Made by a program: the position numbers and the translations under genes
Virus record (IMG/VR): IMGVR_UViG_3300017527_000601
Location: 1 to 28,426 of that record
Length of the DNA: 28,426 nt
From: a virus
Reading direction: 5' to 3' (one strand)
Part shown: positions 11,317-28,426 of the stretch, in pieces
Layout: each line of letters starts with the position of its first letter
Position numbering within the stretch: position 1 is the stretch's first letter
Notes under the pieces: model-generated
What the model was told of the DNA's origin: nothing
What the model saw: the letters and a program-made list of their open reading frames with translations, nothing else
The model's database searches: none

Positions 11317-12687
11317 ATGATACTTAAAGATATATCTATTGATAGAATTGATATTGGAGATAGAGCAAGAAAAGACTACAAAGATGTACACGCCTTAGCA
11401 GCATCCATTCAATCCAAAGGTTTAATATGTCCTATCGCTGTTACAGTCCATCCTCAGATAGATAACTCTTACTTACTTGCTGCTGGTGGCAGAAGACTAG
11501 CTGCTTGCAGATCAATAGAATGGAAATCTATCCCCTGCAGAGTATATGAACATACCTTAACAGATTTAGAACTAAAATCTATAGAATTAGAAGAAAATGT
11601 TCAACGAGAAGATTTGGAGTTTGATGAACAGGCTTTTTTAATGAGAGAAATAGCGGATATTCAAGAACAGATTCATGGAAAGAAAACATCAACAGCTTTG
11701 GATGCTCCCGGTGTTTCTATGCGTGATACAGCTGATATGCTCGGAATTTCTCATGCTAAAATGTCGCAAGATATTAAGCTGGCTAACACAATGGATGCTA
11801 TGCCTGAGATAGATTGGAAGAAATGTAAAAATAGATCAGAAGCATTAAAGCTGGTAGAGATAATGAAAACAACTCTGGTTAGACAAGATTTAGCAAAGAA
11901 GGCTGAAAAAGCTTTAGGCAAGAAAGATAATTTTGCTTCCAATCTTGCTAATGCTTATATTATAGAAGATTTCTTCGAAGGTGTAAAAAGAATTCCAGAT
12001 GGTTCTATTGATCTGGTTGAAATAGATCCACCATATAGTATCAACCTTGAAGCAATAAAAAAAGTTGATAAGAGTCTCGGTTTAAAACCTTATCAATACG
12101 GAGAAGGAGGATATAATGAGATCAAAGGGTCAGATTATGAACTTTTCATGCGAAGAACGTTCGAAGAATGCTTTAGGGTCATGTCAACCAACTCGTGGCT
12201 TATCTGCTGGTTCGGACCGGAACCGTGGTTTGAAAGTATTTATAACTGGATTACGGAAGCTGGCTTCGACACTAGAAGACTCACTGCGAAGTGGGTTAAG
12301 GGAGAGGATAGTGATCACAGTGGATATGTCGAACGGACAAGTGGACAGACTAACAATCCAACCCTCTATCTGGCCCAAGCTAATGAGGAATTTTTCTACG
12401 CAAGAAAAGGAAAGCCGACGCTTGCCAGACCTGGTCGAACCAACATCTTCGGACACAAACCAGTCCCCCCAACCAGAAAAATCCACCCTACAGAGCGGCC
12501 TTTAGAACTAATGAACGATATCTTAACAACTTTTGCTATTGAGAATTCTAGAATTCTTGTTCCCTATGCTGGATCTGGTAACACAATGCTTTCTGCTGCG
12601 TTTAACAAGATGATACCGATTGGATTTGATCTAACAAAGGAATATAAAGAAGGATATGTGATTAGAATAGATGAAATCTTTAATTAA
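11317..12687 (+). CDS. ParB-like / DNA adenine methyltransferase fusion
   Basis: A 456-residue two-domain protein. Residues about 1-120 are ParB/Sulfiredoxin-like: LAAGGRRLAACRSI (about 54-67) and ELEENVQREDL (90-100). A helix-turn-helix follows at about 134-155 (SMRDTADMLGISHAKMSQDI). The C-terminal half is an S-adenosylmethionine-dependent methyltransferase with catalytic DPPY at 237-240 and a cofactor-binding VPYAGSG at about 415-421. That order (catalytic motif before cofactor motif) is the beta class, which modifies N6 of adenine or N4 of cytosine. DPPY favours adenine. Phages use such fusions for self-protection or regulation. The target sequence cannot be read from here. Confidence 0.85.
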   Translation: MILKDISIDRIDIGDRARKDYKDVHALAASIQSKGLICPIAVTVHPQIDNSYLLAAGGRRLAACRSIEWKSIPCRVYEHTLTDLELKSIELEENVQREDLEFDEQAFLMREIADIQEQIHGKKTSTALDAPGVSMRDTADMLGISHAKMSQDIKLANTMDAMPEIDWKKCKNRSEALKLVEIMKTTLVRQDLAKKAEKALGKKDNFASNLANAYIIEDFFEGVKRIPDGSIDLVEIDPPYSINLEAIKKVDKSLGLKPYQYGEGGYNEIKGSDYELFMRRTFEECFRVMSTNSWLICWFGPEPWFESIYNWITEAGFDTRRLTAKWVKGEDSDHSGYVERTSGQTNNPTLYLAQANEEFFYARKGKPTLARPGRTNIFGHKPVPPTRKIHPTERPLELMNDILTTFAIENSRILVPYAGSGNTMLSAAFNKMIPIGFDLTKEYKEGYVIRIDEIFN

Positions 12688-14002: not shown

Positions 14003-14572
14003 ATGGAATTATTTTTCGATACTGAAACATCTGACATGGTAAAGTGGGGTGCACCTATATCTGACAAACGTCAGCCTTGGTTAGTTCAGATAGGAGCTAT
14101 TCTTTCTGACAAGAACATGATTTATGCAGAGTTAAATACCCTAATTCAACCTGAAGGCAGAAAAATAGCTGCTGATGCTTTTGGAGCTCATGGTATATCC
14201 GAAGAAATGGCTGAGTTAGCTGGAGTAAACGAAAGATCTGCATTAATAATTTTCGCATGTCTATTTAAAATAGCCGATGTTATCGTATGTCATAATGTAA
14301 GTTTTGATGATAAGATATTAGACATCGCTTTGAGTCGTCAAGATCCTCCCATACCATACGATTATTTAGACAAAATGTATTTCTGCACAATGAAGCAAAG
14401 TACTGATATATGCAAGATCAAAAGACCTGGAGGTGGTTATAAGTGGCCTAAATTACAAGAGCTTTATTATTTTCTATTCGGAGAACATTTTGTCGGAGCC
14501 CATGACGCTATGAATGACGTTAGAGCTACAAGAAGATGTTATTATGAGCTGAAAGAGCGAGAAAATGCTTAG
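14003..14572 (+). CDS. DnaQ-like 3'-5' exonuclease (DEDD family)
   Basis: A 189-residue exonuclease. Exo motif I is FFDTETSDM (Asp and Glu), motif II is CHNVSFDDKIL with the conserved Asp, and motif III is HDAMNDVRAT with His and Asp, which makes it the DEDDh subgroup. FGAHGIS between motifs I and II is typical of DnaQ. It could proofread or trim replication ends, although the polymerase that follows has its own exonuclease domain. GGTGAAGGG lies upstream of the ATG. It overlaps the polymerase start by 8 nt. Confidence 0.88.
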   Translation: MELFFDTETSDMVKWGAPISDKRQPWLVQIGAILSDKNMIYAELNTLIQPEGRKIAADAFGAHGISEEMAELAGVNERSALIIFACLFKIADVIVCHNVSFDDKILDIALSRQDPPIPYDYLDKMYFCTMKQSTDICKIKRPGGGYKWPKLQELYYFLFGEHFVGAHDAMNDVRATRRCYYELKERENA

Positions 14573-17054
14573 TTTCAAAGGCAAAACCTTCGTAAAACCA
14601 AGTGGTATGGTTGAGACTGCTAAATATGTCTTGGTAGGTGAACAACCATACAAGAACGAGGTACGTTATGGAAGACCTTTTGCAGGTCCATCTGGTCAAG
14701 TTCTGGATGATTGTTTCCGAGCTGTAGGTATTATGAGAAATGAGTGCTATATCACAAACGTAATAAAAGATATGGATGAACCTCTTGCGAAATATATCTA
14801 CATAAATAACCAAGGTGTTGTCTCAAAAATTAGCGATAAAGCAAAGGAATATATAGCTTCATTAAGATCAGAAATAAGAAAAGCTGAATCTTCAACAATT
14901 GTAGCAATCGGGAATGTAGCAATATATGCTTTATGTGGACTTACCAAACCTGCAGTAACCAAAAGGCGTGGTTCTGTTCTGGAATCCACTCTTCTTCCAA
15001 ACAAGAATGTAATTCCGATAATTCATCCATCTACTGTGGTACGTCCTAAAAACCAATATCTGAACAAGCTTCTTATTCAATTTGATCTTAAACGTGCTAA
15101 AGAAATAACTGAAGAAGGGTATAAACCAGAAGAATATTCCTTAATATTAAATCCTTCTTACAACGATTGTTTAATATATCTAAATAAAATAAAAGAAAGG
15201 GGATTAGATGGCATCACTATCGATTTTGATATCGAGCTGTTCAACGAGCAAGTTTCATGTATCTCATTTTCGCATAAACCAAAAGAAGCTATTTGTATTC
15301 CTTTCATTTCTTCAAACGGTGATCATTTTACTATTGAGCAAGAAAGATCCATATGGCTTCACATTGGGGAGATACTTGAAGACGAAAGAATTAAAAAAAG
15401 AGGCCAGAATGTGTCTTTTGATGCACACTTTCTGTTGCGACGTTACGGAATTAAGGCACGTCCACTTGATGATACGATGGTGGCACAAAAGATTATTATG
15501 CCAGACTATCCAATCGGTCTTGACTTTATTACCTCCATTTGGACTAAGCATCCATACTATAAGGACGAAGGAAAAGCTTGGAAGACGGGAATTTTTAACT
15601 GGAATGTAGAATGGGGTTATAATGCTAAAGATTCTTTGATGTGTCAGGAGTCAGCTCCGAAACAAAATATTGAGCTGGTTAAGCAAGATAATGTTAAAAC
15701 TTATGAACGTCAAGTGAAGATGATAGAGCCTCTGGTCTATATGCAAGAAAGAGGTATTAAAGTTGATGTAGAGGGGATGAAAGAAGCTCATAAAAAATTA
15801 GAAAGAGAAACAGATGAATTAAGAGAAGAACTAAATAAAATGGCTGGTTGTGATCTTAATCCTAATTCTCCTAAACAATTAATAAAATATTTCTATGGTA
15901 AATCAGGTCATGGACATAAAGCCTATAAATCAAGAAAGACTGGTTCTGCTACTACTGATAACAATGCAATGAAGAGGCTTATTCGTAAAGGTTTTGGAGA
16001 AGCTAAACTAATACAAACAATTAGGAAAAAAAGAAAGCAAGCATCAACCTACTTAAATCCGGAGAAAATAGACAATGACGGACGCATTCGATGTTCTTAT
16101 AATCCTGTTGGTACTAAGTTTTCTCGCATATCGTCTTCTAAGAACATTTTTGGGACTGGGATGAATATGCAGAATATTCCGCATGAGTTATTAAAATACT
16201 TTATCGCGGATGATGGTTATCTTTATTATTCTTTCGACTTATCCCAAGCTGAAAATAGAATTGTAGCTTATGTAGGTGATGTTATTCCTATGATAGAAGC
16301 ATTTGAAGGAGGAAAAGATGTTCACAGACTTACAGCTGGGCTTGTCTTCAATAAGGATGCAGATGAGATTTCAGACGAACCCAACTCGTCTACTCTTGGT
16401 GACGGAACACATAGTGAAAGATTCTGGGGTAAGAAGTCAAATCATGAACTCAACTACGATATGGGTTACAAAGCTTTCGCATTCGAACAAGAAATTCCAG
16501 AGCGTGAAGGAAAGCTTCTGGTCGACAGATATCATCATATATACCCAGGCGTTCGCAATACGTTCCATGTTTATGTTCGTAGGTGTCTTAGGGAGAATAG
16601 AACTATTACCAATCTTATGGGTAGACATACTCGTTTTCTTGGAGAGTGGGGAGACAAGCTATTCAAAGAGGGTTATTCGTGTATACCTCAAGGAACTGTG
16701 GGAGATGTCATTAACGAGAGAGGTGTTGAATTTATCTATTATAATCAAAAACAGTTTAGTGGAATTGAATTACTCACTCAAGTACATGATTCAATCGGGT
16801 TTCAAATCTCTATATCTATCCCCTGGACAGAACACGCGAGGATGCTTCTTGAGATTAAAGAATCTTTAGAAACATCTCTATCATTCCGTGGACGAGAATT
16901 CGTAATACCAGCTGATCTAATGATTGGATTTAGTATGTCCAAAAAAGACGGAAAAGAATTAAAAGGATCGGATTTTCCAACTAATAAATTTGAACTGGCT
17001 ACTAAACTAGAAATGATTCATAAGGAGCTGAGTGTCAAAGCGAATACTAAATGA
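14565..17054 (+). CDS. UDG-like domain fused to family A DNA polymerase
   Basis: An 829-residue replicative polymerase. Residues 1-165 resemble family 4/UdgX-type uracil-DNA glycosylases: GEQP (25-28), RPFAGPSGQVLDD (37-49), CYITNVIK (61-68), IGNVAIYAL (115-123) and HPS (154-156). The N-terminal CxxC of the Fe-S cluster is missing, so activity is doubtful. Residues about 215-365 are a 3'-5' exonuclease (Asp222-Ile-Glu224, Asp286, Tyr352-X3-Asp356). The polymerase domain has motif A DLSQAENR (Asp558), motif B R619-X3-K623-X2-NHELNY (626-631) and motif C QVHDS (739-743). No 5'-3' exonuclease is present. The position matching E. coli Phe762 appears to be His627. UDG-like extensions are known on some phage PolA enzymes such as that of SPO1. 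Confidence 0.92.
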   Translation: MLSFKGKTFVKPSGMVETAKYVLVGEQPYKNEVRYGRPFAGPSGQVLDDCFRAVGIMRNECYITNVIKDMDEPLAKYIYINNQGVVSKISDKAKEYIASLRSEIRKAESSTIVAIGNVAIYALCGLTKPAVTKRRGSVLESTLLPNKNVIPIIHPSTVVRPKNQYLNKLLIQFDLKRAKEITEEGYKPEEYSLILNPSYNDCLIYLNKIKERGLDGITIDFDIELFNEQVSCISFSHKPKEAICIPFISSNGDHFTIEQERSIWLHIGEILEDERIKKRGQNVSFDAHFLLRRYGIKARPLDDTMVAQKIIMPDYPIGLDFITSIWTKHPYYKDEGKAWKTGIFNWNVEWGYNAKDSLMCQESAPKQNIELVKQDNVKTYERQVKMIEPLVYMQERGIKVDVEGMKEAHKKLERETDELREELNKMAGCDLNPNSPKQLIKYFYGKSGHGHKAYKSRKTGSATTDNNAMKRLIRKGFGEAKLIQTIRKKRKQASTYLNPEKIDNDGRIRCSYNPVGTKFSRISSSKNIFGTGMNMQNIPHELLKYFIADDGYLYYSFDLSQAENRIVAYVGDVIPMIEAFEGGKDVHRLTAGLVFNKDADEISDEPNSSTLGDGTHSERFWGKKSNHELNYDMGYKAFAFEQEIPEREGKLLVDRYHHIYPGVRNTFHVYVRRCLRENRTITNLMGRHTRFLGEWGDKLFKEGYSCIPQGTVGDVINERGVEFIYYNQKQFSGIELLTQVHDSIGFQISISIPWTEHARMLLEIKESLETSLSFRGREFVIPADLMIGFSMSKKDGKELKGSDFPTNKFELATKLEMIHKELSVKANTK

Positions 17055-18504: not shown

Positions 18505-18849
18505 ATGCTAAAAACTATAGCTAAAACAATACATATCTTACATTGTGATAAAGCTCATGCTAATGAGTGGGAACAAGGTCTAGACAAATGCTACTGGTAT
18601 TTAGAAGATCAAATAGAAAGCTGCTGGGAACAACCAGACCATAAACAATATCTTGTTGATGCAGAAATACTCGTTCGCTTAATGATGGAAGATCCTAAGA
18701 AAGATATAACTGAGGAAGATATTAAAAAAGCTAATACTATTCTACTTAAGATTGCAGAAATATGTTCTCGGATTTCTTTCCTTACAAGTACTACAGAAGG
18801 AATTAACGGTATTGTATATAAAGCTATAAACAAAGCCCTATCATCATAA
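18505..18849 (+). CDS. Unknown helical protein, last gene of the rightward unit
   Basis: A 114-residue, predicted all-helical protein (LLKIAEICSRISFLTST...). N-terminal HILHCDKAHANEWEQGL holds a few histidines without a clear metal pattern. AAAGGGGAAACATAAA precedes the ATG. Its stop overlaps the end of the oppositely oriented giant gene by 6 nt, and I see no terminator hairpin in between. Function not recognised. Confidence 0.6.
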   Translation: MLKTIAKTIHILHCDKAHANEWEQGLDKCYWYLEDQIESCWEQPDHKQYLVDAEILVRLMMEDPKKDITEEDIKKANTILLKIAEICSRISFLTSTTEGINGIVYKAINKALSS

Positions 18850-24937: not shown

Positions 24938-25801
24938 TTAAAATAAGGATGCACCTAAGCCTAATACTCCACCTATAGCAGCTCCAATACCAGTACCTAC
25001 ACCAGGCACAGCAGATCCTATCATCGCACCAGCAGCTGCCCCACTCAAAGCTCCACCTAAAGCACTTCCACTTGAAGATTCTGTACCAGTAGTTGTTTTA
25101 CCAGCACCTTGTAAAGCACCCAAAGCAGCTCTCTCATAGTCTAGAACTGTAAAAGGCCATAAACCATCCTTAGCTAACATTTCATAATTATGTCTTGAAA
25201 CATCCATATCGGTTAGAAAATATAACTTCATTATCTCCCCGAACGTCATAATAACTCCTTTATTCCATTCAAGATGTGCCTTCCATCTTTCTGTAATAAC
25301 AGGAATTAATCTATATTTTAACTCAGCACTAAATTTGGAAATAGCTTTTACTCTCGCATCTTCTATTATACTCTTGCCAACAATAAAAGTACTAGTTAAA
25401 ACAGAACCCATATTCCTCATACCAACTTGGAATCTAGGTAAAATATTAGTTTCAATATCATCATCTATTCTTTCCGCTTCAGCAGATACAAGATCAGCTA
25501 CTTCTGACGTATTCATAAGATCTTCAAGAATCTGATCATATAAAGCTTCTATATCTAATCCTGCCATAAACTTTCCATACATATCGTACAAAGATGGAAA
25601 ATCGGTAATATCATATAACGATCCAAAGAAGGCATCACTAATAGTTATAGCAGAAAAATCAGAGTAAGGAGAATCAGCAGCTGCTATTGCTCTATAACTT
25701 GCAACCGCGCTAAGAAAATCCTTATGCTTAGCTTCCACATATGGAGCATATCTTATTGTTGTTTCTTGGTCTCCACCGCCGCCACCACCAGAACTACCCA
25801 T
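24938..25801 (-). CDS. Probable internal virion protein with glycine-zipper tail
   Basis: A 287-residue protein. It begins with a Gly run (GSSGGGGGG). The helical middle (IDDDIETNILPRFQVGMRNM) contains the segment VIMTFGEIMKLYF. The C-terminal 50 residues form a glycine zipper (GALSGAAAGAMIGSAVPG, then GIGAAIGGVLGLGASLF), which often inserts in membranes. This matches phage ejection-type proteins that line a channel. GGAGG precedes the ATG. Confidence 0.6.
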   Translation of the reverse strand: MGSSGGGGGGDQETTIRYAPYVEAKHKDFLSAVASYRAIAAADSPYSDFSAITISDAFFGSLYDITDFPSLYDMYGKFMAGLDIEALYDQILEDLMNTSEVADLVSAEAERIDDDIETNILPRFQVGMRNMGSVLTSTFIVGKSIIEDARVKAISKFSAELKYRLIPVITERWKAHLEWNKGVIMTFGEIMKLYFLTDMDVSRHNYEMLAKDGLWPFTVLDYERAALGALQGAGKTTTGTESSSGSALGGALSGAAAGAMIGSAVPGVGTGIGAAIGGVLGLGASLF

Positions 25802-25815
25802 TATTATACCTCCAC

Positions 25816-26247
25816 TTAAAATTGAAGTTTAAAAACTCTGTGCTCTTCTTTAAACCCGATCATTTTCATTAACTCCCAAATTCTCGGAGTGTCAGAAACA
25901 AAACTAACGTAAGAGCATCTTTCTTTTTTAGCTAACTTTTTAACAATTTTAAAATCTTCTTTCCAAACACTATCCGGAACGACTTTAAAAGAATATACAC
26001 ATTGTAAGTATAGATATTTCTCCTCTGTATATTTATTTACTTGAAATCTAGTTATTAGAATACCAATTATGTTTCTGGTTTCATTTAACCTTACAAAACA
26101 TTGAGCATCACCATCAAGAAGATTCATCAGAACTTTATTAAGATATTTCTGTCTGTATTTTTCCTCAACATTCTCAACAGTTATAATTACAAATTTTATA
26201 GTATCCCACACCAGCGGAATTTGATCAGGTAAAAGTTTAATCAGCAT
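25816..26247 (-). CDS. GNAT-fold protein in the virion operon
   Basis: A 143-residue protein with the GNAT layout: NIIGILITRF, then a strand KYLYLQCVYSFKVVP, a helix and the C-terminal ELMKMIGFKEEHRVFKL. The usual acetyl-CoA loop (Q/R-X2-G-X-G/A) is not visible, so catalysis is doubtful. Similar GNAT-like proteins occur among phage neck and tail genes. The start at 26247 overlaps the upstream gene. Confidence 0.5.
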   Translation of the reverse strand: MLIKLLPDQIPLVWDTIKFVIITVENVEEKYRQKYLNKVLMNLLDGDAQCFVRLNETRNIIGILITRFQVNKYTEEKYLYLQCVYSFKVVPDSVWKEDFKIVKKLAKKERCSYVSFVSDTPRIWELMKMIGFKEEHRVFKLQF

Positions 26248-26971
26248 TTACCACTCCATGAACTTTTAGATAATCTATTTCAAAATATTCGTAAGATAAA
26301 GTTTTAAGCCCAAATTGAAACTCCCTCCCATAGCAGACTAGATAAGCTCTACCTTTCGGATCTACATACTGCCATCTAGTTTGATTAAAACTACTAGACT
26401 TATTAGTTCGATATTTTATACTAGCATACAATGTGATTGATAAATCTATTCCAACTTCTACATACTCAACTGTCTTAGATTCTCGCGTTCCAACATCTAT
26501 TATATCTGTCCAAAGTTCAAAACTCGGAATATCTACATCAACCAGAGACGACACATATAGTGTTCCATCTTGAGAATCTATTCCGGCAATACTAGGAGGA
26601 CCTTCACCCAAAGATTGAGTTCCTACGTTATAGACATAACCATAAGTACCATCACAAATATATAGTATATCAGAAGCTATGTCATAAGATAATGTTAACA
26701 AACTATCACTCATAGGCGATAAAAATTCTGCATAGCCTAGTATTTCCAAACCGTCTGTAAGTTTACATAACTGACCAACCTTGTCAACAAAGAAATGAAA
26801 ACTTTCTGTACCATCAATAGCATGCTTCGACTTCATTCCGAGCCTATAGATAGTATTCATGTTATAACCACTTGCAAAAGGAATAGTTGTTGATCCTCTT
26901 TGCCCGGCATTGTCAACTGGAGTAAGAACAGAAACTCCGTTTTCTCCGTAAGCGATAACCCGATCGCCCAA
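26237..26971 (-). CDS. Neck/tail protein, C-terminal part beyond an in-frame TGA
   Basis: A 244-residue frame with no ATG and no ribosome binding site; the only start-like codon after the upstream stop is TTG at 26971. The protein is beta-rich (GDRVIAYGENGVSVLTP, SYDIASDILYICDGTYGYV, YEYFEIDYLKVHGV), of the kind seen in phage head-tail connector and tail-tube propeller proteins. It is in the same frame as the gene above (26987-27403), separated by one TGA at 26989-26987 followed by C. Most simply the two are one 388-codon gene with a read-through or mutated stop. Confidence 0.65.
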   Translation of the reverse strand: MGDRVIAYGENGVSVLTPVDNAGQRGSTTIPFASGYNMNTIYRLGMKSKHAIDGTESFHFFVDKVGQLCKLTDGLEILGYAEFLSPMSDSLLTLSYDIASDILYICDGTYGYVYNVGTQSLGEGPPSIAGIDSQDGTLYVSSLVDVDIPSFELWTDIIDVGTRESKTVEYVEVGIDLSITLYASIKYRTNKSSSFNQTRWQYVDPKGRAYLVCYGREFQFGLKTLSYEYFEIDYLKVHGVVNAD

Positions 26972-26986
26972 TTTTTTAACGCACAG

Positions 26987-27403
26987 TCACCAACCTGTCC
27001 AATCAAAAGGCCTTCTTCCAGCAACATTATCTCTTCCAATAGCAAAGTTAACCTCTCCAATATTAGACCAACTAACCCAATTAGTTTTTAGTTTCTCAAG
27101 TATTAAATCTGCATAGGCCAGAGCATAAGCTGTAACTGTAGCATCAAAAACATTTCCAAGAATCATTGAACCAGAGGCATTTGCACCAGCAGTAGCTGTA
27201 GCTACAAAATCAATAAAAGGTTTTGAACCATAGACTAAAGCAATAGCAGTAGCGATACCTTGTCCATAATTACCTTCATCATCATAATCAAGACAATCAA
27301 AAGTAATATCCAAATCAGGATTCACAGGACCTGGAGTTAAATTTCTAACTCCTTTAGCTGCTGCATAAGAACTAGCAACATCTGCAGTAAATAATGTAGC
27401 CAT
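26987..27403 (-). CDS. Neck/tail protein, N-terminal part ending at TGA
   Basis: A 138-residue protein (MATLFTADVASSYAAAKGVRN...). It includes PGPVNPDLDITFDC, then a helical stretch, and ends WVSWSNIGEVNFAIG, GRRPFDWTGW. The last part reads as propeller blade and continues, after the TGA, as LCVKKLGDRVIAYGENGV in the same frame. An alternative is that it is a complete small protein that stops here. Its start has only a weak upstream site (AGAGGAATCTT). Confidence 0.7.
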   Translation of the reverse strand: MATLFTADVASSYAAAKGVRNLTPGPVNPDLDITFDCLDYDDEGNYGQGIATAIALVYGSKPFIDFVATATAGANASGSMILGNVFDATVTAYALAYADLILEKLKTNWVSWSNIGEVNFAIGRDNVAGRRPFDWTGW

Positions 27404-27412
27404 AAGATTCCT

Positions 27413-27847
27413 CTAGCAAGCTGTTACAAGTTCTAATTTAGGACTAGCTATAGTAAACGTTCCACCGTCAGGCTCTGTACCTTCCGATCCAAAATCTATA
27501 TACATCATAAGAGGATCATCAGCCACAGTATCGTTAAGAAGAAACGCGCCAGGTGAAGGACCTATATTTCCACCAGAAGCTGTCCACTGAGGATTACTCC
27601 AAGTAATCGTAACCTTATATAACGAGTCATCTCTTGTAATAGAAATACCCGCTGCAGCTTTGGTCTTCTGTGTATAGCCATTACCTGTTGAAAGTTCTGA
27701 ACCAGACACATCACCATAGTCATGATGGTTTGCTTGATCGAACGTAAAACCAGTATCCATAAGAATCCAAATCAGCGAATCCGTATCAAGATCAACACTT
27801 CCCTTAGCCATTAAATATAAGAAATTTTGTACTACCTTGGTTGCCAT
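27413..27847 (-). CDS. Phage virion protein, probably neck/decoration type
   Basis: A 144-residue protein with the look of a common prophage structural family: a start such as KVVQNFLYLMAKGSVDLDTD, LIWILMDTGFTFDQANH, SGSELSTGNGYT, and TWSNPQWTASGGNIGPSPGA. It is beta-rich, and the order of motifs is typical for proteins located beside head-tail and tail genes. AAGGAGATAAAT lies upstream of the ATG. The exact place in the virion is not known. Confidence 0.65.
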   Translation of the reverse strand: MATKVVQNFLYLMAKGSVDLDTDSLIWILMDTGFTFDQANHHDYGDVSGSELSTGNGYTQKTKAAAGISITRDDSLYKVTITWSNPQWTASGGNIGPSPGAFLLNDTVADDPLMMYIDFGSEGTEPDGGTFTIASPKLELVTAC

Positions 27848-27894: not shown

Positions 27895-28426
27895 TTAGCA
27901 ACTTACCTCCGCAGATGAAAAAGAATAAAGTCCATTAGCATTATTCGCCAAGTATATAAATGTGCCATCGCAATAAACATCTTCTGCATAAGAACCCGGA
28001 TCATCACTGTCTTGATGTGTCAAAGCACCGGCATCATCATAAGAATAAACATGGAGGCCTCCGTTCCAATCAGCAACATAAATGAGAGTGCCATCTCCCC
28101 AAACTCCCCGAGCGTCCGCGCACTCATTATTAGAATCTAAGAGTGTTAACATTCCACCGCTTGATATATAAGAACAAAGTCCTAAAGATCCGTTAGCCAC
28201 AAAAATAAGACCGTCTTGGCAGAAAACATCATTTGCATGACCGCCTTGATCGTCAGAATCAATGTGAGTAAATGCACCAGTTGAAGGATCTACAGTATAA
28301 GAATGAAGTCCGCCGTCGCAATTAGCCAAATAAACATAAGTACCGTCTCCATGAACTCCATAATGATGATTCGGCCAATTACCAGACCCACCGGGATTAT
28401 GATAGCCTTTTTGTACTAACGTGCCA
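27895..28426 (-). CDS. Beta-propeller (LVIVD-like) virion protein, 5' end outside window
   Basis: The frame is open to the right edge, so the codons before the TTG at 28329 (VHGDGTYVYLANC) belong to it and the true start lies outside. At least three similar repeats of about 42 residues are visible, each with D-G-X-(L/I/Y)-(I/V)-(F/Y)-(V/L)-A and then G-L-(H/C)-S/V-Y: VYLANCDGGLHSY, IFVANGSLGLCSY, IYVADWNGGLHVY and IYLANNANGLYSF. This is a propeller blade pattern like LVIVD repeats. Such propellers serve as virion attachment or adhesion proteins. Ligand unknown. Confidence 0.7.
   Translation of the reverse strand, partial: GTLVQKGYHNPGGSGNWPNHHYGVHGDGTYVYLANCDGGLHSYTVDPSTGAFTHIDSDDQGGHANDVFCQDGLIFVANGSLGLCSYISSGGMLTLLDSNNECADARGVWGDGTLIYVADWNGGLHVYSYDDAGALTHQDSDDPGSYAEDVYCDGTFIYLANNANGLYSFSSAEVSC

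Follow-up and report, generated by a model that had tools for sequence, protein, structure and literature searches.

We analysed the whole IMG/VR virus record IMGVR_UViG_3300017527_000601, a stretch of 28,426 bases referred to below as the window. Records of this type are often fragments, and the list of open frames indicated that both ends of the window cut through genes. An in-frame TGA followed by C is present at 26987-26989 on the minus strand, in the record as written. The region around it holds the following genes and features:

27895..28425, minus strand: partial gene, cut by the contig end, whose LVIVD-repeat match is weak and under the curated cut-off
27413..27847, minus strand: upstream gene of the virion operon, 144 aa, PHROG 644 (function unknown), intact, ~79% identical to its counterpart in the L004 record
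26987..27403, minus strand: 5' part of the gene for the predicted nozzle C-half, 138 codons, with an ATG at 27403 and AGGA upstream
26987..26989, minus strand: in-frame TGA (then C), at an alignment column that holds V15 I7 L2 T1 A1 in 26 homologous records
26237..26986, minus strand: 3' part of that gene, 249 codons and a TAA, covering the rest of the predicted propeller and the C-terminal domain
25816..26247, minus strand: downstream gene, 143 aa, overlapping the end of the nozzle gene, intact and conserved in relatives
24938..25801, minus strand: intact virion gene that matches the P22 ejection protein gp7 weakly, under the curated cut-off

The partial gene at 27895..28425 occupies the position of the variable stretch that lies between both nozzle genes of relatives. 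Elsewhere in the window, Pfam profiles identified a DNA polymerase A with N-terminal uracil-DNA-glycosylase-type and 3'-5' exonuclease domains (14565-17054) and a ParB N-terminal domain fused with an N6/N4 DNA methylase (11317-12687). Three successive stops, TGA TGA TAG (18838-18846), close a virion gene of 1620 residues.

A sequence-only reading of the window had proposed that the frames on either side of the TGA share one minus-strand reading frame and are split by TGA-C only, which we confirmed from the sequence. The 5' part contains a hypervariable leader (residues 1 to ~104), followed by a W-S-x-I-G motif and the first strands. The downstream part had been described as lacking both an ATG and a ribosome binding site. 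The former is incorrect, in-frame ATGs being present at 26860, 26836 and 26713, and the latter holds for the first five candidate starts, beginning with TTG 26971, none of which has a Shine-Dalgarno match of at least 4 letters. Two later starts (26701 and 26611) have a 4-letter match each, by a test that is loose at this length, since 30% of the 20-mers of the late strand pass it; for comparison, a match of at least 4 letters was found for 28 of the 34 genes of the window. The leader (27122-27403) has a GC3 of 0.07 over 94 codons vs 0.23 in the remainder of the gene (permutation p 0.012). We considered a chimeric join at the stop and rejected it, the best GC3 change point being codon 94, near the boundary between the leader and the conserved part, and not the stop.

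Using the downstream half as a query, we retrieved 13 IMG/VR records. A profile search of IMG/VR yielded 22 loci, ten of them in new records, and a profile search of species genomes (GTDB) yielded three contigs, two from WOR-3 bins and one from a Nanohaloarchaea bin. The resulting homologue set comprises 26 distinct records, with the near-duplicate pairs L008/L009 and L022/L023 each counted separately. The 138-residue half alone found no relative when used as a query, because its leader is hypervariable. We found no DNA-level match to the window among the phages or plasmids searched, and a search for sibling contigs, using the exact pattern with the stop left open, gave 0 matches in viral contigs.

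The homologous frame is open across the TGA site in 26/26 records, and the junction is ungapped in the alignment of both parts with these records. Because the two parts align ungapped and none of the 26 records has a stop at the site, chance does not account for the single-gene reading: the frames on either side of the TGA are one gene. This alignment, which the sequence-only reading had suggested as a check, gave V, I, L, T or A at the TGA column, and W, C, G or a stop in none of the 26 relatives. Homologues that also consist of two genes here, the finding that would have spoken against a single gene, were not encountered (0/26 divided at this point). The column after the stop holds Y in 20/26 relatives and L in none, and the window has L. 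All 36 of 36 near-invariant columns are retained in the downstream half, which indicates that it is undecayed and has had no time to decay.

The family has no significant PHROGs or Pfam match. When the family profile was run against solved structures, the nozzle rows were weak (VP1, E 0.29) and ranked below unrelated ones with better scores (E 0.029). In a predicted model of the conserved part (284 residues, 26 relatives aligned, mean pLDDT 82.9), the propeller and C-terminal domain fold of the nozzle is present. In a Foldseek search against the PDB, the best 25 rows were all phage tail chains, from phages including Pa223, VP1, SU10, Pan3, phicrAss001, Pam1, A4, P22, T7 and Sf6. VIA-align superposed the model on Pa223 (Z 16.7, rmsd 4.4, 272/284 residues), on P22 gp10 (Z 14.8, rmsd 4.0, 258 residues) and on a T7 gp12 chain (Z 11.2, rmsd 5.2, 258 residues). 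The modelled fold thus predicts that the gene encodes the C-terminal portion of a tail nozzle as found in short-tailed phages, in line with the earlier suggestion of a single virion gene of the propeller type, and an otherwise unannotated family now receives this predicted identity. The T7 nozzle both shuts and opens the channel through which the DNA leaves. Its hexamer is reported to shut this channel via its propellers (PMC6702177). The TGA corresponds to model residue 35, with which strand 35-41 begins (strand set 24-28/35-41/44-49/53-58). It falls inside a predicted propeller strand, and under a strict stop both products would be incomplete domains. Separately, ~13 residues (26858-26896, ~170-182 of the read-through protein) are present in the window but missing from nearly all relatives, and this insertion falls in a loop of low predicted confidence.

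In 24/26 homologous records the N-part of the predicted nozzle is encoded by a separate upstream ORF, and the frame of the window is the C-terminal one; its structural match starts near residue 157 of P22 gp10. The N-part was found by way of L014, where one 720-residue frame carries both nozzle parts (N-half profile vs L014: probability 96.9%); the record concerned (G013) holds two one-piece nozzle frames, of 720 and 637 residues. The N-part is mostly ~160-190 residues long and the C-part mostly ~360-430 (for example, L003:722-1282 and L003:4584-5750, respectively), and in the 18 records measured the two ORFs are separated by 1.4 to 3.7 kb of other, variable genes. The break between the two genes separates an N-F-N-G-Q motif from the W-S-x-I-G motif; the two motifs are close neighbours in a one-piece 453-residue protein of a distant relative, Desulfofustis phage OP947158. 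The N-half profile matched this protein weakly (probability 7.8%) and gave no match among solved structures. Annotated portal and major head protein genes lie upstream in OP947158, a stretch that the window lacks. We did not find the N-half in the window, whose contig stops before the corresponding position, nor a match to it in the L004 record, which has little DNA upstream of the C-half before the record ends. We infer that the two chains together would form one propeller, and the literature that we searched gave no description of a split nozzle. A whole group of uncultured phages splits its predicted nozzle over two genes, with variable genes placed in between. Two further arrangements were seen in this group: L039:3665-5563 carries the nozzle C-half in tandem duplicate within one 633-residue frame, and at L005:1309-2688 the N-half frame continues, judging from its translation, into several near-identical repeats (D-K-A-I-F-G-Y-G...).

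We weighed several explanations of the TGA. If TGA were recoded in the late genes, as the sequence-only reading had listed among its options, or if the host read TGA as sense, the single in-frame TGA would itself be accounted for, and a suppressor tRNA could lie outside the contig since this is a fragment. However, the late genes have 1 TGA vs 39 TGG in 3149 codons, the column is never W or G in relatives, and no tRNA gene was found in the window fragment or in the records of seven relatives. Six other genes of the window end in TGA, the polymerase gene and the large virion gene among them, which bears out the earlier remark that the phage is not recoded throughout. In L004, the nearest relative, the nozzle gene itself terminates in TGA. 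Recoding is therefore extremely unlikely. Selenocysteine insertion at the UGA is scarcely conceivable: a short hairpin with a G-rich loop does start ~19 bases past the TGA, but it folds no better than shuffled sequences, it has no Rfam match of the selenocysteine kind, and cysteine stands at the column in 0/26 relatives. From the sequence alone, we also weighed RF2-type frameshifting and set it aside, since the homologous sequence downstream continues in the unchanged frame and needs no shift. A fission of the gene, in which separate starts would give two proteins that assemble as the nozzle N- and C-parts may already do, gains from the nozzle being two separated genes in this phage group, which suggests that fission is tolerated in the lineage. 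It is nevertheless very unlikely, because the first five downstream starts lack a Shine-Dalgarno match, a start at TTG 26971 would omit the beginning of the strand, and none of the 26 relatives is divided at the TGA site.

Leaky or programmed read-through would require amino acid insertion at the UGA-C at a rate of a few per cent, yielding a short form together with the full nozzle; low read-through could suffice because, by analogy with the T7 hexamer, a virion has about six nozzle copies. The TGA is followed by C, and UGA-C is reported to be leaky in bacteria (PMC5289835). The downstream frame is intact and conserved, although its retained columns would be expected just as much after a recent mutation or a sequence error. 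The A1 protein of Qbeta is also a precedent for a virion protein made by UGA read-through (PMC8067240). Against this, a stop occurs in 0/26 homologous records and the one in the window lies within a propeller blade of the predicted model, so that the short form would not be a self-contained domain. The RNA around the site folds like its shuffles (z -0.09, -0.50 and -0.32 for three stretches), and an Rfam scan of 26700-27300 returned rows at chance level only, with no family near its cut-off. A downstream stimulating RNA structure is not required in every known case of read-through. With the stop missing from every homologous record and placed inside a propeller strand, the programmed read-through offered by the sequence-only reading is unlikely. 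Taken further, it is improbable that a leaky UGA-C is real and used, setting the amount of full nozzle and giving virions with both a long form and a short form that displays the hypervariable leader only. Such a stop would be a further division in a lineage that already encodes its nozzle in separate pieces.

Most probably, the stop is isolated and unprogrammed, and reflects either a nonsense mutation that the sampled phage acquired recently or an error in the consensus of the contig; these two options of the sequence-only reading, taken together, fit the data best. Under this explanation, 26237-27403 is one gene for the C-terminal nozzle part, with a TGA as the codon where a propeller strand begins. 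If the stop were real and unsuppressed, only a 138-residue fragment ending within the first conserved blade would be made, and such a copy of the phage would be without a nozzle. The stop appears not to be programmed, with function presumably lost if it is unsuppressed. When the window was compared with the whole records of seven relatives, a within-gene stop was found in the nozzle gene only, the other stops in sense-strand matches lying, by their coordinates, where the match overruns the start or end of a gene. For 13 window genes and their homologues in relatives, 131 gene-record pairs were compared, and one of them, a virion gene of L010, is interrupted. Single lesions do occur in such contigs, as errors or mutations, and at this rate a scan of many contigs should turn up one of them. 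The interrupted copy (L010:6629-7258) is the homologue of the 24938-25801 virion gene and has a frame change near a T-run at ~6730. In-frame stops are reported to be widespread in prokaryotic genes, with an over-representation in the category of phages and transposons, and to be mostly short-lived (Belinky et al. 2021, PMC7918605). Points against an isolated, unprogrammed stop are the leaky UGA-C context; the intact near-invariant columns, which functional suppression also predicts; and the L after the stop, a second locally unusual codon unseen among the 26 relatives.

The predicted protein resembles P22 gp10, T7 gp12, VP1 gp16, the nozzles of SU10 and Pa223 and the phicrAss001 muzzle in fold, over 242 to 273 of 284 residues, with Z of 9.6 to 16.7 in the phage rows, yet sequence identity is only 5 to 14%. 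It also shares with known nozzles a location in the virion cluster, here near the gene with the weak P22 gp7 match. Nothing in the frame of the window corresponds to the first ~150 residues of P22 gp10; the hypervariable leader stands there instead, because the N-terminal part is a separate gene in this phage group. As in the cases that Belinky et al. (2021) describe, a single in-frame stop has conserved sequence on both sides; unlike those, the stop of the window rests on one metagenomic contig, where a sequence error is possible. The likeness to the Qbeta A1 read-through protein is that an in-frame UGA splits a virion reading frame. The Qbeta short form is described as a complete coat protein, with the extension as a separate domain (PMC8067240), whereas the stop of the window interrupts a blade, and none of the relatives found has it. 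If it were nonetheless programmed, the read-through coat protein of Qbeta would have a counterpart in a dsDNA phage.
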